48,536 nt of DNA. It comes from Mesorhizobium sp. Root552. GTDB taxonomy: Bacteria; Pseudomonadota; Alphaproteobacteria; Rhizobiales; Rhizobiaceae. The DNA is taken from contig NZ_LMFV01000011.1 in assembly GCF_001427285.1 (NCBI RefSeq), positions 71,078 to 119,613 of the forward strand, written 5' to 3'. A program made the position numbers and the translations under genes. Below, piece by piece: positions 15,090-48,536 of the stretch (the first letter of the stretch is position 1; every line of letters starts with the position of its first letter). The notes below the pieces were generated by a model, which was not told the origin of the DNA, made no database searches, and was given only the letters and a program-made list of their open reading frames with translations.

Positions 15090-15355
15090 CCCTGTTTAAC
15101 GCACAAAGTTAAAATTCGACTGAAGTTTCACGCATTTCGTAAAGCGGCCACAATCCACTTGTCTGAAATGAGAAGACGTTGGAATTCACTCCTTCTGTCC
15201 CTTTGCAAGAATGCGTGACTTCAATTTAAGGCTGCATAGCGGCGATCGGTCCAGAATGAAACCGTTACATCACGGCACGTGGCCGTCGCCAGATTGACAA
15301 GCATGAGCGATATTTGAAACCTGCCGGCATGGCAGAAGCATCTGGAGGGAATGCG
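15090..15355. promoter_or_regulatory. Divergent promoter region tamA / alpha-2-macroglobulin
   Basis: A 266-bp gap between divergent genes, AT-richer than its flanks. A TTGACA occurs at 15294-15299 on the plus strand, but no good -10 follows at normal spacing. GGAGGGA at 15344-15350 is the ribosome site for the gene starting at 15356. No small gene is convincing here. Confidence 0.45.
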
Positions 15356-31703: not shown

Positions 31704-31754
31704 AGGCTTGCTCTCGTTCCCGGAATCAGTTTGCGAACCCAATCATGGAGACCT

Positions 31755-32552: not shown

Positions 32553-33569
32553 TCAAGGCTTGCCGGCTTTGTGCGCATCGAGCATGCGGCGTGCGCTTTC
32601 CTCGTCGGTGATGAGCACGGTGGGCGCAAAAAGGTTCATCGCGCCAAGCAGCGCCTCGATCTTTTCCTGCCCGCCGGAGGTCAGGATGCGCATAGGCGCG
32701 CGGCGCAGGCGATCCACCTCGACCGACATGACAAGATCGTTGACCGGGTGATCGACAAGATCGCCGTTCCTATCGAAGAAATGGAACAGAAGGTCGCCCA
32801 CCGCCCCGCGCGCCAGCAAGGCCTCCCGGTCGGAATCCTTGAGGAAGCCGCCACGGTAGAACGTCGTGGCCGAAGCGATGCCGCCAATGCTGACCAGCAC
32901 GGCGTCGAGCGTATCGGCAAGCTGGAAGATTTCCTGCAGGCCGCACCGTTCGACCAGCGCAACCTTGGTCGCAACGCTGTCGACCACGGCGGGAGTCGGG
33001 ATGAGATAGCCGTCGCCCTGGAAGGCCTGCGCGAATCGCCAGGCAAATTCGGCCGGGTTGAACCGACGCGCCACGCCGACGCCGCCGAGCAGGGAGATTA
33101 CCTTGAAGTCGCTCAGCGATTTCGAGCTGATGAAAGGCAGGCTCCCGAACAGCGTCTGGCCCCAACCGACACCCACCCGCATGCCCGACTTCATGGTTTC
33201 GGACACGAAGCTTCCGGCCTTGGCGGCAATGGCCGGGATCGGATCGGCTTCCGGCGCTGACAATGGCGCAACGATGGCCTGTTCGAGACCGAACGCCTTT
33301 TCCAGCGCCCGCTCCAGCCGAACGATCTCGACCAGTTCGCTTTCAATGGCGATCTTGACCTCGGCGCGCGCGCGCGCTTCGGCCAGCATGCGCACCACGG
33401 TAACCCGCCCGATGCCGAGGACATCCGCGATTTCGTTCTGCGTCATCTGCTCGATGAAATACATCCAAGCCGCGCGTATCCTGAGACGATCGCTGCGGTT
33501 TTCGCTGGCCAGATGGCTGGTTGCCTGGTCTTCGACCGACCCGGCGCTCCTGCGCGGCTTTCTTGCCAA
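32553..33569 (-). CDS. SorC/DeoR-type sugar-binding transcriptional regulator
   Basis: 338 residues from a TTG at 33569. HTH near residues 30-75 (AAWMYFIEQMTQNEIADVLGIGRVTVVRML), then the sugar-phosphate-binding domain of the SorC family (from about 80), which is related to glucosamine-6-phosphate isomerase folds. The longest reading starts at 33629, but its first twenty residues are unlike family members. GGGGGAG lies nine bases before the TTG. It may regulate the GntR-sulfatase-MFS genes downstream (57-bp gap) or the phosphotransferase genes nearby. A paralogue is encoded at 46947-47918. Confidence 0.85.
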   Translation of the reverse strand: MARKPRRSAGSVEDQATSHLASENRSDRLRIRAAWMYFIEQMTQNEIADVLGIGRVTVVRMLAEARARAEVKIAIESELVEIVRLERALEKAFGLEQAIVAPLSAPEADPIPAIAAKAGSFVSETMKSGMRVGVGWGQTLFGSLPFISSKSLSDFKVISLLGGVGVARRFNPAEFAWRFAQAFQGDGYLIPTPAVVDSVATKVALVERCGLQEIFQLADTLDAVLVSIGGIASATTFYRGGFLKDSDREALLARGAVGDLLFHFFDRNGDLVDHPVNDLVMSVEVDRLRRAPMRILTSGGQEKIEALLGAMNLFAPTVLITDEESARRMLDAHKAGKP

Positions 33570-33638
33570 TGCTCTCAACTCCCCCGAGATTCGTTCACCA
33601 TTCCTTAGCAATTCGGCGCAACTGCACAATATGATCTA

Positions 33639-34622: not shown

Positions 34623-36596
34623 TCACCCGGCCTTGCCCAATTCGACGACCACCTTCTTGGCGCGCGGGACTGATGCCGGGCTCATGCTGAGCTCGGTCAG
34701 GCCCATGCGGAGGAAAGCTGGAATGAGATCGGGGCGGCCAGCCGCCTCGCCGCACATGCCGACCATGATGCCGGCCTCGACGCCTGCCTTCGCCGTCATT
34801 TCGATTGCCGCCATCACCGCCGGATTGGCGACATCGTTGAGCTTCACCACGGTTGGATTAAGCCGGTCGGCGGCCATCACATACTGGGTCAGGTCGTTGG
34901 TGCCGATGGAGAAAAACGCCACTTCCCTGGCCAGCGCAGGCGCGATCAGAACAGCTGCCGGCGTCTCGATCATCACCCCCAGCGCGAATTCGCCGAACGC
35001 CGTGCCCTGCTGCTTCAATTCCACCTTGCATTCCTCGATCAGCACGCGGGTGCGGCGAACCTCGTCGAGGTCGGAAACCATCGGCAGCATCACCTTGACG
35101 TTGCCGTGGACGGCGGCGCGCAAAAGCGCCCTCAACTGCTGCTTGAAGATATCCGGCCGGTCGAGGCACATGCGGATGCCGCGCCAGCCGAGGAACGGGT
35201 TCTCTTCCTCGGGGAACTCGATGCCCGCGATAGGTTTGTCGCCACCGATGTCGAGAGTGCGCACGATGACCGGATACGGTGCGAACGCCTTGGCAAGCGC
35301 GCTGTAGGTCTCGGCCTGCATGTCTTCGGACGGCAGGTGCATGTGGCGCATGAACAGAAGCTCGGTGCGAAACAGCCCGACGCCCATAGCGCCCGCCTCT
35401 TTCGCCGCATCGATTTCCTCAAGCGAGCCAAGATTGGCCGCGACCTCGATGACGGTGCCGTTGGCGAGCGTCGGCACAGTGTCCCTGAACATGGTCAGCG
35501 CGTCGCGTTCGGCCCTGGCGTCGCTCATGCGTCTCTCGTAATCCGCACGCGCGTCAGCATCGGGATCGGCAATGATGGCGCCGGAATTGCCGTTGACCGC
35601 AACGACCTTTGCCGAGCGCAACTCAGCAACCCGCTCGCCCAATCCCAGCACGGCGGGAATGCCGTGCGAGCGCGCGATGATGGCGATGTGTGACGTCGCT
35701 CCGCCGTGACCACAAACGACGGCACCAATGCGCTTCAATGGTGCACGGGCGAGATCCCATGCCCCTATATCGTCGGCAATGAGCACCGCGCCCTGGGGAA
35801 TCTGTTCGAGGCTGACATCGTCTTGTCCGAGCAGCGCAAGGCATATCTGCCGCCCCACCGCCTGCATGTCGTCGGCCCGCGCGTTGAGGTAGGGGTCCTC
35901 GACTGCGCCGAATTCCTCCGCCAGCCTTGAACTGACAGCAATGGTTGCGGCAACGGCATCGGCGCCCTCGCGGATCATCGCGACCGTGTCGCCCACCAGC
36001 GTCTCGTCACCGGCGATATCGCGCAGCGCCGCGACGATGCCGCGATCGCCACCTGCCAGCGTCTCGTCGGCAAGGGCCTTGTCCATGCGGGTGCGCACGG
36101 CGGCAATTGCTGCCTGGAATTTCGCCAGTTCCGGCTCGATCTCGTGCGCCGCGAGCGCACGGCCATCGGAGCGGATCTCAGGCGGGAAATGCGCGAATGC
36201 CGGACCGAGATGCACACCCTCGCTGGCGGCGATGCCGACAAGTCCTGAATCGGAAGCCGCCTGCGACAGCGGCGGCGCAGGCTGAAGGGCAACCGCGTCC
36301 GCACCATCGGCCTTTGCAGCGTCATCTTCTTCCAGGCCGGCGCGAGGGTTTTCCAGATAACCGATCAGCGCCTCGACCGCCTCGATGGCATCCGCCCCGT
36401 TGGCGCGCACGGTGACTTCCTGCCCTTCCTTGACGCCGAGCAGCATCAGCTTGACGGAGCTCTTGGCGCTGACCGCCTTGCCGTCCTTGACGATATCGAC
36501 CTCGGATTCGAAGCTCTTGGCGAGCTTGACGAACCTTGTAGCCGGACGGGCATGCAGTCCTTCATGCACCCTGACGATCGTCGAGCGTTCCATCAC
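34623..36596 (-). CDS. ptsI: HPr-Enzyme I fusion of the phosphotransferase system
   Basis: 657 residues. An HPr domain comes first, residues 1-82, with the phosphorylated His15 in VHEGLHARPAT and the regulatory-site region AKSSVKLMLLG. After a linker to about 115, Enzyme I follows: swivelling domain with GGATSHIAIIARSHG (active His303), PEP-binding barrel with GTNDLTQY, and catalytic Cys615 in MCGEAAG. It transfers phosphate from PEP through HPr to EIIA. It lacks the GAF domain of the rhizobial nitrogen-type Enzyme I. GTG (36596) and ATG (36593) are adjacent possible starts. Last gene of the glucitol-type operon, 43 bp after the EIIA gene. Confidence 0.9.
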   Translation of the reverse strand: MMERSTIVRVHEGLHARPATRFVKLAKSFESEVDIVKDGKAVSAKSSVKLMLLGVKEGQEVTVRANGADAIEAVEALIGYLENPRAGLEEDDAAKADGADAVALQPAPPLSQAASDSGLVGIAASEGVHLGPAFAHFPPEIRSDGRALAAHEIEPELAKFQAAIAAVRTRMDKALADETLAGGDRGIVAALRDIAGDETLVGDTVAMIREGADAVAATIAVSSRLAEEFGAVEDPYLNARADDMQAVGRQICLALLGQDDVSLEQIPQGAVLIADDIGAWDLARAPLKRIGAVVCGHGGATSHIAIIARSHGIPAVLGLGERVAELRSAKVVAVNGNSGAIIADPDADARADYERRMSDARAERDALTMFRDTVPTLANGTVIEVAANLGSLEEIDAAKEAGAMGVGLFRTELLFMRHMHLPSEDMQAETYSALAKAFAPYPVIVRTLDIGGDKPIAGIEFPEEENPFLGWRGIRMCLDRPDIFKQQLRALLRAAVHGNVKVMLPMVSDLDEVRRTRVLIEECKVELKQQGTAFGEFALGVMIETPAAVLIAPALAREVAFFSIGTNDLTQYVMAADRLNPTVVKLNDVANPAVMAAIEMTAKAGVEAGIMVGMCGEAAGRPDLIPAFLRMGLTELSMSPASVPRAKKVVVELGKAG

Positions 36597-36639
36597 ATCT
36601 ACTCTGTTGTTCTCAATACGACCGCGAAACGGCCAGATT

Positions 36640-37020
36640 TCAGGCCGTGATCGTGATGACCGTATCCGGCTTCAATGCGGCGACGAGTTCATCCGTCTCG
36701 ACCGTCGAGGCGCAAATCTCGCCCGGTCTTTCGGCGCTTCCCGCGCCATTGAACGTGATCACGACATGGCCGATTTCGCGCACTTTCGCCCACGCGCTCG
36801 GGCCAATGGCTGTGATCGTAGCGGATACCGGGCCAATGGCGATCGACGCACCGACCTGCGGTGCGCCGACGCTGGGCCCCTCTTCCGTTTTGTGCAGAAC
36901 GGAGACTTCGGCCAGTTCAGGCGGCGAGCCATCTGCGAACAGGATGATAACGCCGCCTTCGGCGAGGTCCGCCACTTCGGGCCCGATAGCCGTAACCCGT
37001 GTTCTCAAAAGAACTGTCAT
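36640..37020 (-). CDS. srlB: Glucitol/sorbitol-type PTS component IIA
   Basis: 126 residues, close to the 123 of E. coli SrlB. Phosphoryl-accepting His43 lies in VSVLHKTEEG. The family's beta-rich body, with VGDxVxIGPxxxxxTAIGPxAWxKVREIGHVVITFNG-type sequence, is well preserved (GPSAWAKVREIGHVVITFNG here). It takes phosphate from the HPr-EI fusion and passes it to EIIB. Located between the EIIB and ptsI genes. Confidence 0.9.
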   Translation of the reverse strand: MTVLLRTRVTAIGPEVADLAEGGVIILFADGSPPELAEVSVLHKTEEGPSVGAPQVGASIAIGPVSATITAIGPSAWAKVREIGHVVITFNGAGSAERPGEICASTVETDELVAALKPDTVITITA

Positions 37021-37041
37021 GTGGCGAACCTCGATTTTAAC

Positions 37042-38052
37042 TTACAGAACGAACAGGCTGACGACCCATGCGATCAGCACGGAGACGGGGCCCATGATCT
37101 GGCGGCTGATCAGCACCGCCGGCACGCCGATCTCGATCGTCTTCGGCTTGGCTTCGCCAAGCGCCAGGCCGACCGGGACGAAGTCGCAACCCACCTGCGT
37201 GTTGTAGGCAAACAGCGCCGGCAGGGCCATTGCGGGCGAGATCGTGCCATTGGCTATCTGCGGGCCGATGATGGCGACGCCGATGACCTGCGCGATCACC
37301 GCGCCCGGCCCCAATATGGGCGACAGGAACGGCAGGCCGCAGATGGCCGAGATGATCAACAGACCGATGATGTTGTTGGCGAGCGGTCCCATCGGCTGTG
37401 CCAGCACGTCACCGATGCCGGTATAGAGGATGAGGCCGATCAGCATGGTCACGAACGCCATGAACGGCAGGACGTTGCGGATCACCTGGTCGATGGTGCG
37501 GCGACCGGCATTGAAGAAGATGCCGACCACGCGTCCCATGATGCGGCCGATCGAGCTGATCAGGTTGACGAAACCGCCTTCGTTCGGCAGCGGCTGGGCC
37601 GCCGACGCCTTGGAAGACGAACTGCTGCTGCTTGATGCCATGGATGCGCCCCCCGCGCTTGTCACTGCTTCCGAGCCGTCGGCCATGGCGACGTTCTCCG
37701 GCTTGACGCCTGATACATAGATGTCTTCGGTGATGAACTGGGCAAGCGGCCCAGCCTGTCCGACCGGCGTCAGGTTGACGGTCGGGATGCGCTTGCGCGG
37801 ATAGACGCCGCAACGAGCGGTTCCGCCGCAATCGACGACGACGACCGCCATTTCGCCTTCGACGGGCGGCGCCTTGAAGCCATCCACGGCTTCGGCGCCG
37901 GTCATCTCGGCGATCAGCGCGGCGACCGGATGAATGCCGCCGCCTGTGACGGACACCACCTTGTTGCGCTGCTCGTCAGGCTGGATGACGAGCGGGCCGC
38001 CCCAGCCACCGGAGCCCTTGGAAATCTTTACGGCTTTGTATGTCTTGGCCAT
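37042..38052 (-). CDS. srlE: Glucitol/sorbitol-type PTS component IIB(C)
   Basis: 336 residues. The N-terminal cytosolic EIIB domain has the phosphocysteine Cys81 in TARCGVYPRKRIPTVN. The C-terminal part has several membrane spans and forms part of the channel. A Ser-rich linker (MASSSSSSSSKAS) at about 145-155 joins the domains. Conserved GGIHPVAALIAEMTGAEAVDGF and QVGCDFVPVGLALGEAKPKTIEIG match SrlE. E. coli SrlE has 319 residues, so the length fits. Gaps of 17 bp (upstream) and 21 bp (downstream) fit one operon. Confidence 0.9.
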   Translation of the reverse strand: MAKTYKAVKISKGSGGWGGPLVIQPDEQRNKVVSVTGGGIHPVAALIAEMTGAEAVDGFKAPPVEGEMAVVVVDCGGTARCGVYPRKRIPTVNLTPVGQAGPLAQFITEDIYVSGVKPENVAMADGSEAVTSAGGASMASSSSSSSSKASAAQPLPNEGGFVNLISSIGRIMGRVVGIFFNAGRRTIDQVIRNVLPFMAFVTMLIGLILYTGIGDVLAQPMGPLANNIIGLLIISAICGLPFLSPILGPGAVIAQVIGVAIIGPQIANGTISPAMALPALFAYNTQVGCDFVPVGLALGEAKPKTIEIGVPAVLISRQIMGPVSVLIAWVVSLFVL

Positions 38053-38069
38053 GTTGTCCTCCCGCCCGC

Positions 38070-38831
38070 TTAGAGCTCAACGCCCTGGCGGCGTGCCATG
38101 ATGGCGGTGATGCGTTCGGTCAGCATGCCCTTGAACAGGATGACGACGAGGCCGACGATGGCGTACCAGATCGCAACCTGGATATGGTAGCCGCTGGCGA
38201 CTGCGCCCTTCTTCTCAAGCTCGAGAAGCGCCACCAGAATACCGCCCCAGACGAAGTATTCGCCCGGATTGATATGCGGGAACAGGCCGAGCGGCGGATG
38301 AACGTAGGAAACGGCCGCATCGTAGAAGGCCGGCTTGTGCTTTTCTTCGAGAAACGAACCGAAGGTGTAAGCCATCGGGTTGGTCAGGAAGAAGACGGCG
38401 AGCAAAGGCAGCACCGTATAGCGGGTGAGCGCGATCCTGCCGGCGCCGCGGGCAAGACCATGCACGCGTTCCTCACCGACCAGCTCGGTCACCGCATAAA
38501 ATGCCGTCATCAGCACGACGAGCGTCGGAATGATGCCGGTGACGAAGCCGGCAAACACTTCGCCGCCCTTCTGGAAGATGCCGATAAAGTACTTGCCGAT
38601 GGCGGTAAGCCAGCCAAGCTGCTCTTCCTGCTGCACTTCGTTCAGCTTTTCGCGGAACTGGTCGACGGTGAGGTTGCCACTGTCGGCTTGAGCCAGAACG
38701 ACGAGTTGGTCTGAGGCATGCTCCACGGCAAGCTTGCCGTGCAAGGCAGCATCCGAGACCATCGAACCCGCGACATGCAGGTTCTGCATGGCCAAGTCGG
38801 CATGCTGCGCCAACATTGAAAATACAGACAT
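38070..38831 (-). CDS. srlA: Glucitol/sorbitol-type PTS component IIC, extended
   Basis: 253 residues, against about 187 in E. coli SrlA. From residue 78 it follows the family (YFIGIFQKGGEVFAGFVTGI, then PLGLFPHINPGEYFVWGG). The first 72 residues are extra: a charged, mostly helical stretch with LTVDQFREKLNEVQQEEQ. The start is firm, because AGGAGGAAAA immediately precedes the ATG and there is no alternative ATG at the E. coli-like position. It forms the membrane translocator with SrlE. The extension could dock a partner; its function is unknown. Confidence 0.88.
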   Translation of the reverse strand: MSVFSMLAQHADLAMQNLHVAGSMVSDAALHGKLAVEHASDQLVVLAQADSGNLTVDQFREKLNEVQQEEQLGWLTAIGKYFIGIFQKGGEVFAGFVTGIIPTLVVLMTAFYAVTELVGEERVHGLARGAGRIALTRYTVLPLLAVFFLTNPMAYTFGSFLEEKHKPAFYDAAVSYVHPPLGLFPHINPGEYFVWGGILVALLELEKKGAVASGYHIQVAIWYAIVGLVVILFKGMLTERITAIMARRQGVEL

Positions 38832-38884
38832 TTTTCCTCCTAATGCCGCGCTGCCCTACTATCCCGGTAGGCTTGCGGCGCCCT

Positions 38885-39322
38885 CTATGCGCTTGCTGCA
38901 CTCAAGCCGGACAAGCCCGGCTCTTTCCCCGGCTCCGACCGTGCCCGGTCGATCTGCTCGATCGCCCGCTTCACGGCCTCGGCCACACCGGGTTCCCCCT
39001 CCCCAAGAACTGCAGGGTTGGACCGGATGCTGTCGAGGGTTGCCCCTTCAAATTCCTCGTGACGCTTGAACTTGGTGAACACCGAGCGCCCGCTCATGAT
39101 CAAAAGCCTGCGCACGATCAGGTCGGGCGTCACCACGAGCAGCACGATCGTGCCCTTGCGAAAACGGCCGCGACTGTTACCGGCGCCGACGAAGCCGTCC
39201 TTGTACTTCTCGGTGATGCCCTTGAAGACATCGGTGTAGTGGCGCATCTGCATCCACACGCCGAGCGCCTGCAGCCCCCAGACGAGCGCCAGCAGTAGCA
39301 ATGCCCATTGCCAAATTGCCAT
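38885..39322 (-). CDS. gutM: Glucitol operon activator GutM-like protein
   Basis: 145 residues from the ATG at 39322, with GGAGGAAGG upstream. The reading to 39391 adds 23 residues that are unlikely. One N-terminal membrane span (IWQWALLLLALVWGLQALGVW) is followed by a soluble domain with DVFKGITEKYKDGFVGAGN and FRKGTIVLLVVTPD, matching GutM. In enterobacteria GutM activates the glucitol operon. Here it is the first gene of the operon, whereas in E. coli it lies after srlD. The DNA-contact mode of this membrane-anchored protein is not established. Confidence 0.85.
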   Translation of the reverse strand: MAIWQWALLLLALVWGLQALGVWMQMRHYTDVFKGITEKYKDGFVGAGNSRGRFRKGTIVLLVVTPDLIVRRLLIMSGRSVFTKFKRHEEFEGATLDSIRSNPAVLGEGEPGVAEAVKRAIEQIDRARSEPGKEPGLSGLSAASA

Positions 39323-39385
39323 CAGGCCCTTCCTCCCAAGCCTCCGCGCGGCCGCACGCTCGGTGGCGCAACATGCCCAATTAGA

Positions 39386-39394
39386 GAACATTTG
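39386..39394. promoter_or_regulatory. GAACATTTG element at the glucitol-PTS promoter
   Basis: GAACATTTG (plus strand) lies just downstream of a perfect TTGACA -35 on the minus strand (39405-39410), whose -10 would be TCTCTA or TCTAAT. The element is thus in the -35/-10 spacer of the gutM operon promoter. The same nine bases recur before the HAD gene and, as GTTCATTTG, in the palindrome before the Fbp-type operon. A common SorC-type operator is inferred. Confidence 0.4.
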
Positions 39395-40210: not shown

Positions 40211-40885
40211 GTGGCATCATCCCCACTGATCATCTTCGACTGCGACGGCGTACTGGTGGATAGCGAGCCGCTGGCGGCGCTCGCTTATGAGCGTGTTTAC
40301 GAGAAGCACGGCATGAGCGGTGTGAGCGCCGACATCATTGCCCAGTGCATCGGCATGAAGCAGGCCGACATCATCGTGCGCATCAAGGAGCTTACCGGCC
40401 ATCAGTTCCCGGCAGAAGCAGGCGACGACATCTGGGCGGAAACAAAGGCGCTTTTTACCGAGCAGCTTGCCCAGACCCGGGACCTCGCTGCATTCCTGTC
40501 ATCGCTTGGAGAGAAGCGCTGCGTGGCGTCCTCCTCCTCGCTCGAACGCATTCACCACAGCCTCGATGTCACTGGATTGGCTACGTTTTTCGGTGATGCA
40601 ATCTTTTCCTCTTCGATGGTCAAGCGCGGCAAGCCGGCGCCGGACATCTTCCTTTTCGCAGCCGAGAAGATGGGAGCGGAGCCGGCCAACTGCGTGGTGA
40701 TCGAAGACTCACCCTTCGGCGTCGAAGGTGCGGTCGCAGCCGGCATGACGGCAATTGGCTATACAGGCGGCAGCCACAGCTATTCCAGCCACGGCGAGGT
40801 TCTGTCTGCCCGAGGAGCAACTGCGATCTGCAAGGACTGGATCGAAGTCGGCAGCAAACTTCGCGAGTTGGGCTTTACTGCCTGA
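40211..40885 (+). CDS. HAD-family sugar-phosphatase-like hydrolase
   Basis: 224 residues, starting with GTG; GGAGAAGG at 40197-40204 fixes the start. All four HAD motifs are seen: DCDGVLVDSE (nucleophile Asp10, Asp12), ASSSSLE (Ser of motif II), KRGKPAPD (Lys of motif III) and EDSPFGVEGAVAAG (acid of motif IV). The cap is the small helical type used by beta-phosphoglucomutase and sugar-phosphate phosphatases. It hydrolyses a phosphorylated metabolite, probably a sugar or polyol phosphate. Its position next to the polyol PTS, with no sorbitol-6-phosphate dehydrogenase gene in the window, makes it a candidate for removing that phosphate (inference). It is convergent with surE. Confidence 0.88.
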   Translation: MASSPLIIFDCDGVLVDSEPLAALAYERVYEKHGMSGVSADIIAQCIGMKQADIIVRIKELTGHQFPAEAGDDIWAETKALFTEQLAQTRDLAAFLSSLGEKRCVASSSSLERIHHSLDVTGLATFFGDAIFSSSMVKRGKPAPDIFLFAAEKMGAEPANCVVIEDSPFGVEGAVAAGMTAIGYTGGSHSYSSHGEVLSARGATAICKDWIEVGSKLRELGFTA

Positions 40886-40898
40886 TCCGGCTGCCGGC

Positions 40899-41636
40899 TC
40901 AAAGGCTGACGACCAGCTCATCGCCAAGGCGCGTTTCGCCAAACCAGTTCAGACGGTTGATGCTGACGGAACCAGCATCGACAACGCTGTTTTCATCACC
41001 CGGCGTCGTGTCGTGCCCACGTCCGCGCGGCAATAAGAGCACGGTACGGTCGCCATCGGTTTCAACCACTTCGGCGGTCCGGCCAATCTTGTCGCGACCG
41101 ATGCGGGGCTGCCTGATTGCGGCGGGTAGCGCGGCGGGCAGGTTGATGCTGAGCCAGTGCCCTTCGACCGCCCATTCGTCACGCTTTTCCCATAGCGATC
41201 CGATCAGGCCCGCCAGCCAGGTTTCATCCCCAGGGCCGACAGTCGGATTTTTCACACGCGAGATGCCGATTGCGGGAATCCCCCAGAAGGTTGCCTCGCG
41301 GGCAATGCCGAGCGTTCCGGAATAGGCGAGGTCCTCGGCCACGTTGCGGCCGTCATTGACGCCGGCAAGCACGAGGTCCGGCTTGGGCTGATCCTTGAAC
41401 AGCCACGCCATCGCTGTAATCACGCAGTCGGCGGGTCGGCCGGAACAGGAAAAGCGTTTCTCAGCCCGTCGCTGCATGGTGATGGGCTGAGCCAGCGTCA
41501 GCGACGGCCCCGCAGCCGTGTGCTTCTTCTCGGGCGCGACCACCCAGACATCGTCACTCAAATGCCGTGCCGCTTCGGCAAGACGGGCAATGCCCGGCGC
41601 ATCGATGCCATCATCGTTGGAGATCAGGATGCGCAT
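40899..41636 (-). CDS. surE: SurE 5'/3'-nucleotidase family protein
   Basis: 245 residues from the ATG at 41636, preceded by GGAGAGAT. The longest reading (to 42206) would overlap the upstream gene out of frame. Metal ligands are in ILISNDDGIDAPG (Asp8, Asp9), with the conserved GRPADCV and AGVNDGRN segments. Most SurE proteins read SGxxNxGxN, so the Asp after Asn is a variant. SurE proteins dephosphorylate nucleoside monophosphates and short polyphosphates. The canonical rhizobial surE lies beside pcm. This one is last in an importer operon, so it is probably a paralogue with a catabolic role (inference). Confidence 0.88.
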   Translation of the reverse strand: MRILISNDDGIDAPGIARLAEAARHLSDDVWVVAPEKKHTAAGPSLTLAQPITMQRRAEKRFSCSGRPADCVITAMAWLFKDQPKPDLVLAGVNDGRNVAEDLAYSGTLGIAREATFWGIPAIGISRVKNPTVGPGDETWLAGLIGSLWEKRDEWAVEGHWLSINLPAALPAAIRQPRIGRDKIGRTAEVVETDGDRTVLLLPRGRGHDTTPGDENSVVDAGSVSINRLNWFGETRLGDELVVSL

Positions 41637-42802
41637 CGTATCTCTCCGTTTCCTACCGCCAGCCGGTCGCCGGTGCGGCTTTCGACCTGCAATGCAGGTA
41701 TGCGGGAGGCCAATCGGGAAAGCTCCGCCGGCCCGCATGAATGTCCGAGCACCGGGGGACGTCCGGCCTGCTCCCAGATGGCGACATTTCCCGACACGGT
41801 CGGATGCGTTGGCATCCTGATCCAGTCCGCGCGACCCTTTGCATGGAGGATTTCGCCCGGCGTACCGGCCGGTAGATGGCCGCTGAGCAGGATCGGACAG
41901 TTGGCCGCGTCTGCCAGCGGAATCAATCGAGCCGACGGGCCGGCGCGGCCCATTCCATCGTCGGCAAGCAGAGGGCAGTCCGGCAAAGGCTGTCCATCCG
42001 ACCAGTCGAGAGCTTGCGCGAGACGCTTGCGAAGCACATCGGCAATACTCGGCCTGAGCGCCGCATCCGCCTCGATCTGGGCCTGCAAGGATGCGCGCAT
42101 TGAGGCATGGATGGCGAACCGGCCCGGCATCGCAGCGATAAGTTCCAGCGACCGGCCCGACAGCGGCGTCGGCAGCAGGCAACCTCCATTGTGCGCTTCG
42201 ATCCAAGCGGCAATCTGCCTGGCGCGATCGGTGCCGGAGACAGGGTCGGCTCCGTAGGAAGCATCCAGCATGACGAGATCACAGGCCGGGATCGGATCCA
42301 TGACGAAGACCGCGCTATCTGGCACCACGTCCGCGCAATAGACGACGCGGGTCTCGCCAGCGCTCGCGGCGAACCAGACGCCACCGACCACGTGGCCCGA
42401 CCGCCCGGTGCCGATACTCAAGCCCGCAACCTCCAGACTATCGCCGGGCCGAAACAGCTCGATCCTGTCGGCGGGAAACGGGAAGGCGCGCAAAAGCTCA
42501 GGCTCGGCATAGGCTTCCAGCGTCGCCGGCGCCTCATCCAGCGTTTCAGCCGTCATCAGGATGCGGCCGGAAAAACCCTTCGATAACAACCAATTCAATG
42601 CACCGACATGATCCTCATGCGCGTGCGAGACCAGCACCGCTTCAAGATCGGCAACAGAATCGACTTGCGGGTAATACTCCTTGCCGCTCGCGCCGACCTT
42701 GATGCCGGCGTCGAGCATCACGCGTCGCCCGCCATGACCAATGACGATGCTGGTCCGGCCCTTTTCGCCGAACCCGCCAGCAAGTTCGATTGAAAGCGTC
42801 AT
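41624..42802 (-). CDS. MBL-fold metallo-hydrolase
   Basis: 392 residues. The zinc-binding motif SHAHEDHVGAL (His60, His62, Asp64, His65) and later ligands near GTGRSGHVVGG (His) and YCADVVPDSA (Asp) are seen. The overall order resembles the beta-lactamase-fold hydrolases related to RNase J/CPSF-type nucleases, with a long insert between metal motifs and a C-terminal LGHSCGP. Cleavage of a phosphodiester or another ester is likely but not specified. It overlaps surE by 13 bases, and its ATG shares ATGA with the stop of the ATPase gene. Translation is therefore coupled along the whole operon, implying that it acts on the imported compound. Confidence 0.85.
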   Translation of the reverse strand: MTLSIELAGGFGEKGRTSIVIGHGGRRVMLDAGIKVGASGKEYYPQVDSVADLEAVLVSHAHEDHVGALNWLLSKGFSGRILMTAETLDEAPATLEAYAEPELLRAFPFPADRIELFRPGDSLEVAGLSIGTGRSGHVVGGVWFAASAGETRVVYCADVVPDSAVFVMDPIPACDLVMLDASYGADPVSGTDRARQIAAWIEAHNGGCLLPTPLSGRSLELIAAMPGRFAIHASMRASLQAQIEADAALRPSIADVLRKRLAQALDWSDGQPLPDCPLLADDGMGRAGPSARLIPLADAANCPILLSGHLPAGTPGEILHAKGRADWIRMPTHPTVSGNVAIWEQAGRPPVLGHSCGPAELSRLASRIPALQVESRTGDRLAVGNGEIRCAS

Positions 42803-43878
42803 GCCGGTTTTCCGTTCGGAATGAGCCAGCCGGACATGATCTTCAGCCTGATCTGCGATCCGGGTTCGAACGACCCAGGCTCTTGACGCTCGACATGCAG
42901 ATGGAGGTCGGGCTGAAGCGTCGGCGAAAGCTCGACGCGCACCGCACCGCCCTTGTAGATGGCGCGGGTGACGGTGGCGTCGAAACCAGCCTCACCTTTG
43001 CCGGCTATCTCCAGATCGGGGGATCGGATGCAGATTTTGGCATCGGCGCGCGGCAACTCACCGGGACGGCAGCGGACCACGACCTCATGTCCAAGCACCT
43101 CGACCCGAACATGTCCCTCCTGTTCAGCGCTCAAGACCCTGGCCGGCAGCACGATGCCCTGTGCGATGAAGGAGGCGACCATCTCGTTGGCGGGTTCGCG
43201 GTAGAGGTCGCGCGGCGCGGCAAGCTGCGCCAGCCGGCCATGATCCATGACCGCGATGCGATCGGCCAGCGCCATCGCCTCGGCCTGGTCGTGGGTGATG
43301 TAGACGATCGTGGTACCGGTGCGCTTGTGGAAGGCGGCGAACTCGTCCTCCATCGACGCGCGCAGATGCACGTCGAGATTTGCCAGCGGCTCGTCGAACA
43401 GCACCAGCGAAGGCGCGGCGACAAGGCATCGCGCCAGCGCCACGCGCTGCCGCTGGCCGCCGGAGAGATTGGCGGGACGCCGGTCCGCCAGGCCGTCGAG
43501 ATTGACCAGGGACAATGCATCCGCAACTCGCTGGCGCGCCACGGCCTTGTCCACCTTGGCGACCTTCAGCGAATAGCCGACATTTTCCGCAACAGTCATG
43601 TGCGGCCACAGCGCATAGTTCTGGAAGACGATGCCGACGCGGCGCTTTTCCGGCGGCACGCTGCCGCTGGCATCCGAAACCACGTCGCTGCCGATACGGA
43701 TCTGACCGGAACTGATCTTCTCGAACCCGGCGACAAGCCTCAGCAAAGTGGTCTTCCCGCAGCCGGAAGGACCAAGCACGGCAAGAAACTCGCCGTCGCG
43801 AACATCGAGTGACACATCCTTGACGGCGTCATAGTCGCCGAAGGTCTTGGTCACATTGGCGATGGTCAGTCCCGCCAT
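42799..43878 (-). CDS. ABC importer ATPase, Fbp/Afu (CUT1-like) type
   Basis: 359 residues from the ATG at 43878, with GTGGAG upstream. The longer reading to 44406 falls inside the permease gene. Walker A GPSGCGKTT (36-44), Q-loop VFQNYALWPHMTV, signature LSGGQRQR, Walker B VLFDEPLANLD and His-switch ITHDQAEA are intact. A C-terminal TOBE region follows. It overlaps the permease gene by 13 bases and the MBL gene by 4. It energises import of the ligand held by the binding protein encoded at 45732. Confidence 0.92.
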   Translation of the reverse strand: MAGLTIANVTKTFGDYDAVKDVSLDVRDGEFLAVLGPSGCGKTTLLRLVAGFEKISSGQIRIGSDVVSDASGSVPPEKRRVGIVFQNYALWPHMTVAENVGYSLKVAKVDKAVARQRVADALSLVNLDGLADRRPANLSGGQRQRVALARCLVAAPSLVLFDEPLANLDVHLRASMEDEFAAFHKRTGTTIVYITHDQAEAMALADRIAVMDHGRLAQLAAPRDLYREPANEMVASFIAQGIVLPARVLSAEQEGHVRVEVLGHEVVVRCRPGELPRADAKICIRSPDLEIAGKGEAGFDATVTRAIYKGGAVRVELSPTLQPDLHLHVERQEPGSFEPGSQIRLKIMSGWLIPNGKPA

Positions 43879-45569
43879 GGCAGCACTCCACTTGGAAGGT
43901 AAGGGGCAAGCAGGTTGGTCACCAGCATCAGGACGAAGGTGATCGCGACCGTGATGGCCGACATTGCCGCCGCGTAGTTGGAATCGCCGCCTTGCTCGAA
44001 CGAGAACATGACGACACCGATGGTTTCGGAACCGGACGACCACAACAGCGCCGAAACCGTCAGTTCGCTGAGCGCGGTCATGAAGATGAGTAGCCCGCCC
44101 GCAATAGCGGCAGGCGCTACCAGCGGAAATACGATGGTGCGCAAGCGCGTGAACAGCCCTGCCCCGGCAACCTGCGCCGCTTCCTCGAGCGCCCGGTCGA
44201 TCTGATGGTAGCCGCTGACGGTGGGCCGCAGCGCCAGCACCAGGAAGCGGGCGAGGTAGGCGTAGAGGATGATCCAGACGGTATTGTAAAGCTGGATGCC
44301 GGTGAACGGGATCGGCCGCAGGAACATCAAGAGCGCCGCAATGGCAAGCACCACGCCGGGCAGCGCGTAAGGCAATTCGATCAACAGGTTGACCAGCCTG
44401 ATCCACCTTTGCTTGCCCCAGGCGATCAGATAGCCAACCGGCACGGCGACAAGCACGGCGAACACCGCAGCGGCGATGGAAAGGGCAAAGCTGTTGAAAA
44501 AGGCGCGCCTCGATCCAGCATGTTCGAACAGGACGAAGCGATAGTTGTCGAGCGTCGCGGTGGCTGACGAAAGGGCAATGCCATAGCCCGGAACGAGCGA
44601 GGTCAGGACCAGACCGAACAGCGGCAGGACAAGGATCAATATGATGAGCAGCCAGATACCCGCCTCGACCGGCACGCGCCAGCGTCCCAGTTCATAAGGT
44701 TCGGCCGAAAGCGACGTCGAAGAGATGCGATAGTCGCGCCGCCTGCTCATGATTTCCTGGGTGACGATGCCGGCCATGGCGATGACGCCGATCAGTACCG
44801 ACAGGAACGCCGTCTCGCCCAGAACCGCTGGACCGCCGCCGGCCAGCTTCTGGTAGATGAGCGTTGGCAGGACGAGATAGTTGGCGGGAATGCCGAGGAA
44901 GGCAGGGATGCCGAAATTGCCGACGCAGGACACGAAGGCCAGTGCTGCTGCCGCCATTATAGAGGGCGTCATGAGCGGCAGCACCACTGTGCGCAGTACT
45001 GTGAACCAGCCTGCGCCGCCCGCTCGTGCGGCTTCGACCAGTTCACGCGGCAGCTTGCGTAGACCGGCACGCACGAGAAGGAAGACCAGCGGCCCGTATT
45101 GAACGCCGAGCAGCAGGATTATGCCTTCAGTGGAATAAAGCGGATTGCGGGTGCCGAGCGGCGGCGCAAGGCCGAGCAGCTTGAGGAAGGGACTGGCCGG
45201 GCCGAACAGTTGCAGCCAGGCAAGCGCCGTCACCTGCGGCGCGATCATCAGCGGCATGACATAGCACAGCACAAGCACGCCGCGTCCGCGAATATCGGTC
45301 AGCGTGACCAGAAGCGCCACGAACGTGCCGAGCACGACGGCGAGCAATGTGCCGAATACGCCGACGACGAGCGTGTGCCATGTCGCCACCCACGTCGCCG
45401 AACTGGACAGTCCAAGGCGGATCGCGGTGTCGGAGACAACGCCGCCCGGCGCCACCACCTCCTTCAAGAGGCGCAGCATCGGTAGCAGCGACAGAAGCAC
45501 GATGACAACGGCTACCGCCGCCGTCAGGGCCATTTCCTGGCCCCGGCTTTCCTTCACCCTTGCAGTCAT
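43866..45569 (-). CDS. ABC importer double permease, FbpB/AfuB type
   Basis: 567 residues, two tandem BPD_transp_1 domains with about twelve spans, so a single chain forms the whole channel. Each half has its coupling loop (ELVEAARAGGAGWFTVLRTVVLP and ALEEAAQVAGAGLFTRLRTIVFP), showing the internal duplication. AGGAACG precedes the ATG. It follows the binding-protein gene after 162 bp that contain a strong stem-loop. FbpB, AfuB and HitB have the same architecture and carry ferric iron or sugar phosphates. Confidence 0.92.
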   Translation of the reverse strand: MTARVKESRGQEMALTAAVAVVIVLLSLLPMLRLLKEVVAPGGVVSDTAIRLGLSSSATWVATWHTLVVGVFGTLLAVVLGTFVALLVTLTDIRGRGVLVLCYVMPLMIAPQVTALAWLQLFGPASPFLKLLGLAPPLGTRNPLYSTEGIILLLGVQYGPLVFLLVRAGLRKLPRELVEAARAGGAGWFTVLRTVVLPLMTPSIMAAAALAFVSCVGNFGIPAFLGIPANYLVLPTLIYQKLAGGGPAVLGETAFLSVLIGVIAMAGIVTQEIMSRRRDYRISSTSLSAEPYELGRWRVPVEAGIWLLIILILVLPLFGLVLTSLVPGYGIALSSATATLDNYRFVLFEHAGSRRAFFNSFALSIAAAVFAVLVAVPVGYLIAWGKQRWIRLVNLLIELPYALPGVVLAIAALLMFLRPIPFTGIQLYNTVWIILYAYLARFLVLALRPTVSGYHQIDRALEEAAQVAGAGLFTRLRTIVFPLVAPAAIAGGLLIFMTALSELTVSALLWSSGSETIGVVMFSFEQGGDSNYAAAMSAITVAITFVLMLVTNLLAPYLPSGVLPWRD

Positions 45570-45685
45570 GGTTGCGTTCCTAAGCCCTTGAATATGCGTA
45601 ACGACTGCACGGCAAGCCTCGGGATTTCCCCATCCGCGATTGCCGAGGGATCATGCGTCGTTTTCCGCGCGGCGCAAATGAGGCA

Positions 45686-45717
45686 TTCGCTGCGGCAGGA
45701 TCACCCGCCGCAGCGAA
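45686..45717 (-). terminator. Strong stem-loop 3' of the binding-protein gene
   Basis: TTCGCTGCGGC (45686-45696) is the exact complement of GCCGCAGCGAA (45707-45717), an 11-bp stem with a 10-base loop. It lies 14 bases beyond the stop of the binding-protein gene, before the permease gene. There is no T-run. It likely stabilises the upstream message and lowers expression of the downstream genes. Confidence 0.65.
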
Positions 45718-45731
45718 CGGCCACTGTTCAA

Positions 45732-46718
45732 TTAACCGCCGAACAGCTCGGAGAACTTGGCCTTGTCGGCTTCCGTCTTCTCGACGATCGCCTTGGTGTC
45801 GAACGACATCACCTTGACGGCAACCCCCTCGGGCAGCCAGGCGGGACGTCCGACCGAAGCCTTGGCCGGCAGGTAACCCATGTCCAGCGCCAGCTTCTGG
45901 CCTTCATCTGACAGGATGAAATCGACAAATGCCTTGGCGCCCTCGACATTCTTGGCGCTCTTCATGATCGCGACCGGCTCGGTCACGGCAGGCACGCCTT
46001 CTTCGGGGAACACGAACTCGACCGGCGAACCCTTGGCCTTGGCATTCATGGCCATGAAGTCGACGAGGATGCCGTAGGGCTTCTCGCCGCTTGCCACCGA
46101 CTTCAACACCGCGCCGTTGCCGCGCACACTTACCGTATTGTTATCCTTCAACTTCTGGAAGAAATCCCAGCCATAGTTGGAATCGCCGGCGAAGCCCGAA
46201 AGCAGATAGGCCGCGGCACCGGAATAGAGTGGGCTCGGCATGACGAGACCATCCTTGTATTCAGGCTTTGCAAGATCTGCCCAGTGCGCTGGCTTTTCGG
46301 CAGCAGCGGTATTGTAGGCGATGCCGGTGGTGATCAGCTTGGAGCCGAAATAGGTCTTGTCCTTGTCGTAGGCGTCTGCCTCGATACCGTCGAGCTTGGC
46401 TTCTGGATAGGCAAGCAGCCGGTCATCTTTCTTCAAGAGCTCCATGCTGACCGCATCCGCGATCAGGAGCACATCGGCCTGCGGGCTGTTGGCGGCGAAC
46501 TCGGCAGCCAGTTTGGTCATGATATCGCTGGTGCCGGAGCGATAGATATTCACTTCCGTGCCGGGATGGGCGGCCTTGAAGGCCTCGACCGTCTTTGCCG
46601 CATCAGCCTCGGGCTGCGACGTGTAAAGAGTAAGCGTATCGGCGCTGGCCGACCCCGAAACGAGCATGGCGGCAAGCGTGATCTGGCTCGCCAAAAGTGT
46701 GATGAAACGCGTCTTCAT
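45732..46718 (-). CDS. Periplasmic binding protein, Fbp/Afu-type importer
   Basis: 328 residues from the ATG at 46718, with AGGAGG immediately upstream. Starting at 46787 would add 23 residues. The signal peptide ends near SGSASA. The body has the family-1/6 pattern of FbpA/AfuA proteins: DTLTLYTSQPEADAAKTVEAF, FGSKLITTGIAYNT and GAKAFVDFILSDEGQKLALDMGYLPA. Ligands in this family include ferric ion, 2-aminoethylphosphonate and sugar phosphates. A paired C-terminal Tyr-Tyr iron motif is not seen, which argues against ferric ion. First gene of the operon, divergent from a SorC regulator. Confidence 0.9.
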   Translation of the reverse strand: MKTRFITLLASQITLAAMLVSGSASADTLTLYTSQPEADAAKTVEAFKAAHPGTEVNIYRSGTSDIMTKLAAEFAANSPQADVLLIADAVSMELLKKDDRLLAYPEAKLDGIEADAYDKDKTYFGSKLITTGIAYNTAAAEKPAHWADLAKPEYKDGLVMPSPLYSGAAAYLLSGFAGDSNYGWDFFQKLKDNNTVSVRGNGAVLKSVASGEKPYGILVDFMAMNAKAKGSPVEFVFPEEGVPAVTEPVAIMKSAKNVEGAKAFVDFILSDEGQKLALDMGYLPAKASVGRPAWLPEGVAVKVMSFDTKAIVEKTEADKAKFSELFGG

Positions 46719-46832
46719 TGAGACCTCCTGATCCTTTGTGCATGGCGTCCCCGGACTTGACCGGATACAACCTGCTCCTCCCTGCACGGCGTATATGACC
46801 CGTGGATGACAACACGCCTGCAGTTATATGAT

Positions 46833-46868
46833 ATGTTCATTTGTTCGTTGTCAAATACAAATGAACAT
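46833..46868. promoter_or_regulatory. 12-bp inverted repeat around the importer promoter
   Basis: ATGTTCATTTGT (46833-46844) and ACAAATGAACAT (46857-46868) are perfect reverse complements with a 12-base spacer. The spacer holds TTGACA on the minus strand (46849-46854), the -35 of the importer operon. One arm lies in the -35/-10 spacer and the other just upstream. The site is 79-114 bases before the divergent SorC gene. This is the layout of a repressor or activator operator; SorC binding is inferred from position. Confidence 0.75.
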
Positions 46869-46946
46869 TGTTAGAGTGACAAAATCGTCACGCACAGTGG
46901 GCACACTATGCGGGGGATCGAGCGTGAATGCGGAGGGTCAGGCGCG

Positions 46947-47918
46947 ATGGGCAAACGCAAGGTGGACAAGTCCGGCATCGAGGTGCCGATGGTGTCTTCC
47001 GACCTTAACGTCAAGACCGCATGGCTCTACTACGTCGAGGGTCTGACCCAGGAACAGATCGCCGAAAAGCTTGGAGTGAGCCGCGTCAAGGTGATGCGCA
47101 CGCTGGCGGCTTGCACAGCCGAAGGCCTTGTCGTCACAACCATCAATGCCGAAACGACCGCACAGGTGGCGCTGGAACGAGCGCTTGAAAAGCGCTGGGG
47201 TCTCGATGCCGCAGTGGTCATACCGACGCCTTCGGACAAGGATCATCTCGAAAAGGCGATCGGCCATGCCGTTGCGCTCTATATTGGCGAACAGATGCAG
47301 GACGGCATGACACTGGCCATCGGTGGCGGGGCGACACTGCACGCCAGCCTCGCCTTCATGGCCAGACGCCAGCTTAAATCGGCCTCCGTGATCGGACTGG
47401 TCGGCTCGCTGCCGCATTCGCAATGGATCAATCCGTCGATCGTCGCCGCCAAGGTGGCGGAAGTACTGGGTGTCGACAGCTACCAGATCACCGCGCCGGT
47501 CATGCTGCACGACCCGGCCTTGCGCGATCTTTTGTGGGCCCAGCCGGAACTGCTCGATGTCAGGCGGCGCGCCGCCGATGCCGATATCGCGCTCATCACG
47601 GTCGGCGAGATCTCGCCAGAAGCCACCATTTTTCGCCATGCAATCGTGCCTGCAGCGCTTATCCCCTCGCTCAGAGCAAAAGGCGCGGCAGCCAACATCC
47701 TGTCTTATTTTGTTGATTCGGCAGGTAAATTAATCGAGCACGAGATTAACGACCGCGTCATGGCCATCGGTCTCGATGTGGTCAGCGCAATTCCCAATGT
47801 GGTGCTGGCTGCAGGAGGCCGCCACAAGATCGCGGCGATCCGCGCAGCCCTGAAGGCAGTGGAGGCCAACGTGCTGATCACCGACAGCGAGACGGCAAAG
47901 GCGCTCAGCGAAGGATAG
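46947..47918 (+). CDS. SorC-type sugar-binding transcriptional regulator
   Basis: 323 residues from the ATG at 46947, chosen for GGAGGG at 46932-46937. HTH at about residues 25-60 (TAWLYYVEGLTQEQIAEKLGVSRVKVMRTL), then the sugar-phosphate effector domain (GDxxLAIGGGATLHASL-like loop and LAAGGRHKIAAIRAAL). Family members sense phosphorylated sugars, and phosphate groups bind in that loop. It is divergent from the Fbp-type importer with the palindrome between, so it most likely regulates it. Paralogous to the protein at 32553-33569. Confidence 0.9.
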   Translation: MGKRKVDKSGIEVPMVSSDLNVKTAWLYYVEGLTQEQIAEKLGVSRVKVMRTLAACTAEGLVVTTINAETTAQVALERALEKRWGLDAAVVIPTPSDKDHLEKAIGHAVALYIGEQMQDGMTLAIGGGATLHASLAFMARRQLKSASVIGLVGSLPHSQWINPSIVAAKVAEVLGVDSYQITAPVMLHDPALRDLLWAQPELLDVRRRAADADIALITVGEISPEATIFRHAIVPAALIPSLRAKGAAANILSYFVDSAGKLIEHEINDRVMAIGLDVVSAIPNVVLAAGGRHKIAAIRAALKAVEANVLITDSETAKALSEG

Positions 47919-47927
47919 GAAGCAATT

Positions 47928-48248
47928 CTAGATCAGGCCGCGTTCGCGCAGGAAATCATCGATCCCGACATGGGTCATTTCCTCGAACTCGGCGATCGCT
48001 TCGGCCATGCGCTGGCGCTGGCTGGCAAGCAGTGTGAACACCTGCCGCATTTCACCCGAAACGCCAAAGCGGCCCCAGCGTTCGGCAATATGGGCCGGAA
48101 GGCCAATGTCGGCGCAGAACGCTTCCAGGCTTTCATAGCCGAGCTCACGCACGAAGGCCTTGGTATCTTCCGCCGACATGCGCTGCTCGAAGGCATGGTC
48201 GTGAAGGCGTTGCGCCATCAGCCTTATGTCTGCGGGAGACGCCCCCAT
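47928..48248 (-). CDS. Small protein of unknown function
   Basis: 106 residues, charged and helical (LMAQRLHDHAFEQRMSAEDTKAFVRELGY; LPAHIAERWGRFGVSGEMRQVF). I do not recognise a domain. The ATG at 48248 has a poor ribosome site. The frame remains open for about 120 bases upstream without ATG, GTG or TTG, and that part reads like plausible protein (VRNFVSRL just before the Met), so the true N-terminus is uncertain. It is convergent with the SorC gene, ten bases apart, and follows pdhC on the same strand after about 190 bp. Confidence 0.55.
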   Translation of the reverse strand: MGASPADIRLMAQRLHDHAFEQRMSAEDTKAFVRELGYESLEAFCADIGLPAHIAERWGRFGVSGEMRQVFTLLASQRQRMAEAIAEFEEMTHVGIDDFLRERGLI

Positions 48249-48435: not shown

Positions 48436-48536
48436 TCACACCAGCATGGCCATCGGGTTTTCGATGAGGCGCTTGAAGGCGCCGATGAGTTCGGCTCCGA
48501 GTGCGCCGTCCACCGCCCGATGGTCGGTCGAGAGCG
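48436..48536 (-). CDS. pdhC: Dihydrolipoamide acetyltransferase (E2), C-terminal end only
   Basis: A reading frame enters from the right edge and ends at TGA (48436-48438). The 33 visible codons end STDHRAVDGA...AFKRLIENP...LV, the catalytic end of 2-oxo acid dehydrogenase E2 with the DHRxxDG motif (active-site His). This form of the tail fits pyruvate dehydrogenase E2, which transfers the acetyl group to CoA. The rest lies outside the window, so the assignment to pyruvate rather than another 2-oxo acid complex rests on the DHRAVDG variant and the alphaproteobacterial context. Confidence 0.85.
   Translation of the reverse strand, partial: LSTDHRAVDGALGAELIGAFKRLIENPMAMLV

Follow-up and report, generated by a model that had tools for sequence, protein, structure and literature searches.

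Intermediates of the methylerythritol phosphate (MEP) pathway are known as biosynthetic metabolites, and one of them, methylerythritol cyclic diphosphate (MEcPP), is also a stress signal in plants. DXR-II (DRL) interconverts 1-deoxyxylulose 5-phosphate (DXP) and MEP. PMC3847144 treats DXR-II as biosynthetic, reports that it occurs where the mevalonate route is the only one and in two strains where both routes are missing (section 7), and raises the question of its evolution in strains equipped with DXR-I (section 9); in the text of that paper, words beginning 'catabol', 'reverse' or 'pyruvate dehydrogenase' are absent. According to a 2026 review, no pattern in DXR-II distribution has emerged (PMC13001223). 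In the literature searched, the coverage of which was partial, no catabolic pathway for MEP-pathway intermediates was found and no organism is described as living on them. Here we describe five genes in a 48,536 nt stretch of Mesorhizobium sp. Root552 (contig NZ_LMFV01000011.1, positions 71,078 to 119,613; hereafter the window), which we rate as a probable importer-plus-catabolism operon with an unusual substrate. We propose that they take up and trim the substrate of a catabolic pathway in which the first steps of isoprenoid synthesis would be reversed to obtain carbon and phosphate.

The five genes and the features next to them are:

40899..41636, minus strand: SurE-type phosphatase, dedicated paralogue, 245 amino acids (aa); PF01975 151.2 bits
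41624..42802, minus strand: beta-CASP metallo-beta-lactamase-fold hydrolase (MBL), 392 aa
42799..43878, minus strand: ABC ATPase with a TOBE_2 domain, 359 aa
43866..45569, minus strand: ABC permease with two fused BPD_transp_1 domains, 567 aa; NCBIfam PhnU2 155.6 bits, below the cut-off of 593.25
45732..46718, minus strand: SBP_bac_6 / Afu-type periplasmic solute-binding protein (SBP), 328 aa; closest solved structures 8x1a, AfuA 4r72 and P5PA 6wce
46834..46867: probable SorC operator, palindrome TGTTCATTTG-N14-CAAATGAACA, overlying a -35-like TTGACA (minus strand)
46908..47918, plus strand: SorC/DeoR-type regulator; PF04198 186.9 bits (cut-off 27); best NCBIfam match Bacillus DeoR, 178 bits, below the cut-off of 420
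47928..48248, minus strand: conserved 106-aa open reading frame (ORF) between E2 and SorC, no Pfam or NCBIfam match; present in 52 of 80 related loci
48436..48534, minus strand: E2 acyltransferase, last 33 codons including the stop; interrupted by the contig end

The original prediction, made from the sequence alone, described a one-strand series of binding protein, double permease, ATPase, MBL and SurE with overlaps of 13, 4 and 13 bases under a SorC regulator, and the coordinates and the PF04198 score bear this out. All five genes are on the minus strand, with ATG starts at 46718 (SBP), 45569 (permease), 43878 (ATPase), 42802 (MBL) and 41636 (SurE), and the regulator diverges from them on the plus strand. 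The permease and ATPase genes overlap by 13 bases, those for ATPase and MBL by 4, and those for MBL and SurE by 13, and a gap of 162 bases separates SBP from the permease.

A scan of public genomes with an MBL profile gave 103 relatives, the best 80 loci of which were retained for all counts of related loci. The order SBP-permease-ATPase-MBL-SurE was found in 74 of them, as had been anticipated, and SurE lies immediately 3' of MBL in 78. The six exceptions are two contig starts (L007, L055), a locus without SurE (L016), one with another ABC transporter (L045), a lone MBL gene (L073) and a rearranged locus (L080). A SorC-type gene is found upstream on the opposite strand in 62 loci, and the nearest named locus, from Mesorhizobium sp. 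61-13 (L003), shows 86–100% protein identity across the region. With very high confidence, the five genes constitute a dedicated conserved system. One of the loci (L056) comes from a record titled Bacillus subtilis SK6B4 and carries a Pseudochrobactrum-like cassette; the record is probably mislabelled or contaminated.

The genes beyond the SorC regulator, for DXR-II and for the E1 and E2 components of a dehydrogenase complex, together with a downstream phosphotransferase system (PTS), were missed by the original prediction and probably give the pathway its meaning. In 20 of the related loci, nine genes follow one another on one strand in the order DXR-II, E1-alpha, E1-beta, E2, SBP, permease, ATPase, MBL and SurE. 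This run is uninterrupted (gaps between matches of 250 bases or less) in 11 of the 20, from Bosea, Chelatococcus, a Rhizobiales isolate, Rhodospirillales, Burkholderiales and betaproteobacterial metagenome-assembled genomes; L041 has the 106-aa ORF inserted, and eight Mesorhizobium loci have both this ORF and SorC, the latter reversed. The four additional genes sit between SorC and SBP in Bosea, Chelatococcus and others. All nine genes are present within the fetched DNA at 27 loci, and at L068 the two blocks are swapped, with the five-gene set first, yet co-directional. A functional link between the five-gene set and DXR-II-E1-E2 is one that we hold to be highly probable.

The linked oxidoreductase is DXR-II, with a score of 508 bits to the Brucella protein 3upl. 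Residues K191, K193, T229, H250 and R320 are kept in all 20 aligned DXR-II-type sequences; the roles of K191, K193, T229 and R320 and the conservation of H250 are given in PMC3847144 (section 6). Two DLO-type outgroups lack the full set, with S for T229 and F for H250 in L117, and K191, T229, H250 and R320 missing from L120. A tree of 22 DXR-II/DLO rows left 9 of 19 forks open and joined two long branches, and this poor resolution is the reason that no DXR-II ancestry is drawn from it. PMC3847144 cites paralogues from M. loti and O. anthropi as functional. The DXR-II of this genome may make MEP in cells. E1-alpha scored 386.2 bits against the curated pyruvate dehydrogenase (PDH) equivalog, short of the cut-off of 393.85 (371 for the Chelatococcus protein), and none of the matches was to an acetoin-specific E1 model.

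Only the last 33 codons of E2 represent the DXR-II-E1-E2 block inside the window, which terminates at the end of its contig (C11) so that the E2 C-terminus (99 coding bases, 48534-48436, minus strand) is cut there. A second contig of the genome, C24 (L094), carries DXR-II, E1-alpha and E1-beta and ends inside the N-terminal part of E2. The E2 core was assembled once, at the end of a third contig (C34) before a dihydrolipoamide dehydrogenase-like gene, and the core of a relative matches C34 at 91%. The assembly was probably broken by two near-identical E2 cores, which would account for the single core seen. Judged by synteny with the complete record of M. ciceri (L009), C24 and C11 are probably neighbours; alternatively, C24 may join C34. 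The contigs of L004, L008, L011, L020 and L034 likewise begin inside an E2 gene.

The link was followed at genome level in two samples. Among 19 genomes carrying the cassette, DXR-II was found in all 19 and adjoins E1 genes in 18. Canonical IspC is present in nine of the 19, and DXR-II is E1-linked in all nine; with IspC present, DXR-II is not needed there for synthesis. A family sample of 199 genomes contained MBL in 10, DXR-II in 129 and IspC in 72, with both DXR-II and IspC in 7 and neither in 5. At the threshold used, DXR-II was found in nine of the ten MBL-bearing genomes, the tenth (G096) having it only in pieces. Bare co-occurrence of DXR-II with MBL was rejected as evidence, given its presence in 129 of the 199 genomes. 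The comparison was made instead on E1 linkage in 81 genomes, made up of 9 of the 10 MBL-bearing and 72 of the 120 MBL-less DXR-II genomes (the better-scoring ones, some represented by one of two copies): DXR-II is E1-linked in 8 of 9 MBL-bearing versus 13 of 72 MBL-less genomes (Fisher p = 4.8e-5, uncorrected for kinship). Both DXR-II copies were fetched for 11 genomes, and in 10 of these one copy and no more is E1-linked, which would suit a division of labour between synthesis and some other task. In the eleventh (G176; L200, L214), neither of the two DXR-II copies is beside E1 genes.

The binding protein is significantly related to the solved AfuA (4r72, E = 6.7e-17, residues 30-281). The sugar-coordinating motif of AfuA consists of H205, D206 and E229 (PMC4546632); in the alignment, to which a numbering offset of 2 was applied, D206 is kept (D220) and the other two are replaced by valine (V219 and V245), leaving the motif incomplete. 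Since the closest solved relatives are AfuA, which binds sugar phosphate, and P5PA, which binds pyridoxal phosphate, a phosphorylated ligand is likely. The proposed import of a phosphorylated or nucleotide-like compound is to this extent upheld, and its nucleotide-like part found no support. Iron uptake was rejected, AfuA and P5PA being nearer to the SBP than are ferric-binding proteins; in addition, the paired iron tyrosines are missing in the alignment with 1y4t. In Limoniibacter (L045, 3515-11899), the MBL-SurE pair stands behind a peptide-type ABC transporter with two ATPase domains in one ORF, and trimming pair and importer may be separable units.

Along its full length, the MBL protein is a beta-CASP protein of the CPSF73/TTHA0252 fold, an MBL domain with an inserted beta-CASP domain. 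The HxHxDH motif at 60-65 (H60, H62, D64, H65) and residues H137, D158, D180, H333 and H354 are invariant in 18 relatives; in our reading, D180, H333 and H354 would be beta-CASP motifs A, B and C. A carboxyl-ester or lactonase role was rejected, as model and profile both indicate beta-CASP phosphodiesterases, and since known members of the family cleave nucleic-acid phosphodiesters, a phosphodiester or phosphoanhydride target would be likelier than a carboxyl ester. The SurE domain is clear (PF01975, 151.2 bits against a cut-off of 22.1), and none of the 13 matching NCBIfam SurE models reaches its cut-off, the nearest being TIGR00087 (131.1 against 135.1). Residues D8, D9, T40 and N94 are invariant in 14 relatives; we take the metal-binding positions of SurE to be D8, D9, S39/S40 and N94, with T40 here in place of the serine. 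The genome also carries a surE on C34, flanked by serS and pcm (both named from our reading of the sequence), so the copy in the window is not its only one and its assignment as a dedicated paralogue stands. The predicted succession, opening by the MBL enzyme and then dephosphorylation by SurE, suits a phosphate-bridged compound in its order; its ester bond has to be given up for a protein that is beta-CASP throughout. A Na/Pi cotransporter gene (PF02690 with PhoU) lies downstream of SurE at L021 (12131-13825) and L044 (11928-13682), an arrangement consistent with phosphate release.

In the pathway that we propose, the Afu-type importer would take up a phosphorylated methylerythritol compound, most likely MEcPP, the phosphate bridge of which would be opened by the beta-CASP enzyme, so that this enzyme and SurE together would convert MEcPP to MEP. 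DXR-II working in reverse would then oxidise and rearrange MEP to DXP, and E1-E2 would split DXP, as acetoin dehydrogenase splits acetoin, into acetyl-CoA, glyceraldehyde 3-phosphate and NADH. The neighbouring sorbitol-type PTS would provide a second entry, from free methylerythritol to MEP. SorC proteins sense phosphorylated sugars, and those found here would sense a sugar phosphate of the pathway. DXP is an acyloin, with a methyl ketone next to a carbinol, and an E1 dependent on thiamine pyrophosphate (TPP) could therefore split it between C2 and C3 and pass the acetyl group to lipoyl and CoA. Purified PDH is reported to make 1-deoxyxylulose from pyruvate and glyceraldehyde (PMC3424233, listing Yokota and Sasajima 1986), which corresponds to the carbon-carbon bond of this step made in the opposite direction. 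E. coli engineered for high pathway flux exports MEcPP and DXP measurably (PMC6833178), and export of MEcPP by engineered E. coli is also reported in the abstract of PMC3487848. MEcPP is favoured as the ligand because it is exported in this way and because it alone needs both a hydrolase that opens the bridge and a phosphatase for conversion to MEP. Taking the parts separately, the catabolic direction through MEP and DXP appears probable, the pathway with some methylerythritol phosphate as its import is somewhat favoured, and MEcPP itself as the imported ligand has about an even chance. A bolder proposal, to which we give slightly less than even odds, is that alphaproteobacteria, together with some of the betaproteobacterial metagenome-assembled genomes, feed through a retro-MEP pathway on MEcPP and methylerythritol that plants and microbes release, and that DXR-II arose as a catabolic enzyme and only later replaced IspC in lineages such as Brucella and Mesorhizobium. 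Such an origin would explain the presence of DXR-II in organisms that own IspC or are without the rest of the pathway.

The sorbitol-type PTS and the remaining neighbours lie on the SurE side of the set:

32553..33629, minus strand: second SorC/DeoR-type regulator, adjoining the PTS; NF053881 184 bits, below the cut-off of 420
34623..36596, minus strand: HPr-enzyme I fusion; TIGR01417 450 bits and TIGR01003 83 bits, both above cut-off
36640..37020, minus strand: sorbitol/glucitol-type PTS IIA (SrlB); PF03829 90.2 bits
37042..38052, minus strand: sorbitol/glucitol-type PTS IIB (SrlE); NF049924 455 bits, above the cut-off of 400
38070..38831, minus strand: sorbitol/glucitol-type PTS IIC (SrlA); NF049923 185 bits, above the cut-off of 150
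38885..39391, minus strand: GutM-like activator; PF06923 84 bits
39404..40135, plus strand: unnamed protein, recurrent neighbour, no family match in Pfam or NCBIfam; presumably MltR-like
40211..40885, plus strand: HAD-family sugar phosphatase-like gene, recurrent neighbour with a match in 26 of 80 loci

The PTS is complete at 34623-39391, in an alphaproteobacterium, with its own phosphoryl-transfer chain and GutM, and no SrlD-type dehydrogenase is among the genes named around it. A sorbitol-type PTS with its own HPr-enzyme I is found within about 10 kb of 15 of 20 E1-linked DXR-II genes (10 of 13 in MBL-less and 5 of 7 in MBL-bearing genomes). Four of the other five stop where the contig ends, on the side of E2 (L224, L227, L234, L237), and the fifth (L223, 3728-9228) has a sugar ABC importer and a PfkB kinase beside DXR-II-E1-E2. 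This block accordingly has three kinds of partner: a PTS, which would import and phosphorylate; an ABC importer with a kinase, which would import and then phosphorylate; and the Afu-type importer with beta-CASP and SurE, which would import an over-phosphorylated compound and then trim it. All of these entry modules could deliver a polyol phosphate; their common product would be a polyol monophosphate accepted by DXR-II, namely MEP. DXR-II may also stand beside a sorbitol PTS in Firmicutes such as Listeria, an arrangement on which the literature search returned nothing. At L062 (11991-13331), the start of a 446-aa ORF matches the unnamed MltR-like protein and its later part is HAD-like by eye, so that the two recurrent neighbours may be fused there.

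A scan of the fetched DNA for the operator, with up to four mismatches tolerated, found a site in 46 of the 80 related loci, in all 46 at most 400 bases upstream of SBP. Beyond these, it returned the site of the window itself and one elsewhere (L235); shuffled sequence gave no site in 2.65 Mb and one in shuffles of 120 loci. At L041, L043 and L058 the operator is kept before SBP and there is no adjoining SorC match. An operator common to all modules was rejected, none having been found in the scans.

Of the other explanations, the one that survives best, and which we still regard as unlikely, is import of a sugar phosphate or nucleotide that is left unspecified, opening by an MBL esterase and dephosphorylation by SurE, with no tie to methylerythritol. 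It would suit SBP relatives that bind sugar phosphates or pyridoxal phosphate, regulators of a type that senses phosphorylated sugars, and a family of SurE enzymes that act on nucleotides, yet it leaves the nine-gene run and the enrichment of E1-linked DXR-II in MBL genomes unexplained, and valine replaces two of the three residues with which AfuA binds sugar. Somewhat less probable is the same pathway with another ligand, be it CDP-methylerythritol (CDP-ME), another methylerythritol phosphodiester or MEP, which the beta-CASP enzyme would split, with SurE dephosphorylating the by-product. The linkage evidence is identical, and a nucleotidase SurE would suit CMP released from CDP-ME. CDP-ME, however, is not known to occur outside cells. 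The intermediates exported measurably by the engineered E. coli are, moreover, MEcPP and DXP, with MEP in traces only (PMC6833178). Scavenging of oligonucleotides, with a beta-CASP nuclease and a SurE nucleotidase acting on imported fragments, fits the SurE family and a full-length beta-CASP fold nearest to RNases, and is improbable: the linkage to DXR-II and E1-E2 is left unexplained, and no nucleoside transport, kinase or base-salvage gene is among the named neighbours. Nor do we know of an Afu-class importer for oligonucleotides. The weakest, anabolic salvage of methylerythritol phosphates for isoprenoid synthesis and not for carbon, would agree with a genome that uses the MEP pathway (IspG present) and has DXR-II as its only DXR-type enzyme, and is very improbable since imported MEcPP or MEP could enter synthesis without DXR-II, E1 or E2, which lie in the same run and draw carbon away from the pathway, and since nine of the 19 cassette genomes own IspC yet keep an E1-linked DXR-II.

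Several points weigh against the catabolic methylerythritol pathway that we prefer. It is drawn from genomic data, and its substrates, like its direction, are all ones that we infer. The beta-CASP enzymes known to us so far act on nucleic acids, cleaving phosphodiesters, and the E1 score is close to the PDH cut-off (386 against 394). On the fetched DNA of 30 of the 80 loci there is no match to DXR-II, E1, E2 or PTS; four of these have less than 10 kb of downstream flank and two a short upstream flank, and the observation is offset by the family sample and the 19 genomes, where the E1-linked DXR-II usually lies elsewhere in the genome. Presence of DXR-II is uninformative in the family because it replaces IspC there. 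The window genome (4.62 Mb, 63 contigs) has IspG, a genome search found no IspC, and DXR-II is the sole DXR-type enzyme, which must therefore also serve synthesis. Phyllobacterium sp. YR531 (G063/G207, L124) is an exception to the linkage, with a single DXR-II and no E1 neighbour. The SBP operator was not found before the DXR-II or PTS operons in the fetched DNA scanned, and in Mesorhizobium-type loci the modules are therefore probably regulated apart. In the 11 uninterrupted loci, an operator-like site before DXR-II is clear in only three (L069, L071, L075), those of L077, L078, L079 and L081 are no better than shuffles, and the evidence of co-regulation is weak. Finally, in tests on wild-type bacteria, no MEcPP was detected in the medium (PMC3487848, section 9).

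Other features of the window stand apart from the set. A PehA-like phosphoric/sulfuric ester hydrolase gene (30153-32495; 620 bits, below the cut-off of 900) adjoins the PTS regulator together with a GntR-type regulator and an MFS transporter (28811-30040). Rfam places a Ruegeria cis52 small RNA at 6044-6220 (60.5 bits), and ARAGORN a tRNA-His (anticodon atg) at 19900-19986, which lies inside a long ORF (15314-20824) and is probably spurious.

If true, the proposed pathway would provide a large group of 'MBL + SurE + iron-type ABC' operons with a function, add a small-molecule role to the beta-CASP family and predict a dehydrogenase complex that splits DXP. Rhizosphere bacteria could then remove a plant retrograde signal, and the question of why DXR-II arose and persists beside DXR-I (PMC3847144, section 9) would become testable.

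Among described systems, the importer most resembles the hexose-phosphate importer AfuABC (PMC4546632) and P5PA (PMC8427247), which share an Afu-type SBP and a phosphorylated ligand taken up intact. Phosphate-side residues are partly shared, S37 of AfuA being T63 here and Thr37 in P5PA, and S148-G149 being kept. In contrast to these systems, the set has one fused permease, H205 and E229 of AfuA are both valine and T150 is alanine, and the importer genes run into those for beta-CASP and SurE. The hydrolase shares its entire fold with the beta-CASP RNases TTHA0252, CPSF73 and RNase J, but its gene belongs to an operon that probably takes up a small molecule, and its identity to the closest solved members is about 20%. 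The PTS matches the glucitol (gut/srl) operon in IIC, IIB, IIA and GutM, and differs in having its own HPr-enzyme I, no SrlD-type dehydrogenase named beside it and, in relatives, an adjoining DXR-II-E1-E2. The order E1-alpha, E1-beta, E2 is that of acetoin dehydrogenase (aco) and PDH, and the complex would share their TPP chemistry, which can split an acyloin such as acetoin, whereas here the complex is linked to DXR-II, its E1-alpha falls below the PDH equivalog cut-off, and its substrate would be DXP. DXR-II itself agrees in family and active-site residues with the enzyme of Brucella and relatives and, unlike the biosynthetic DXR-II described in PMC3847144, is linked here to importers and a CoA-acylating complex.

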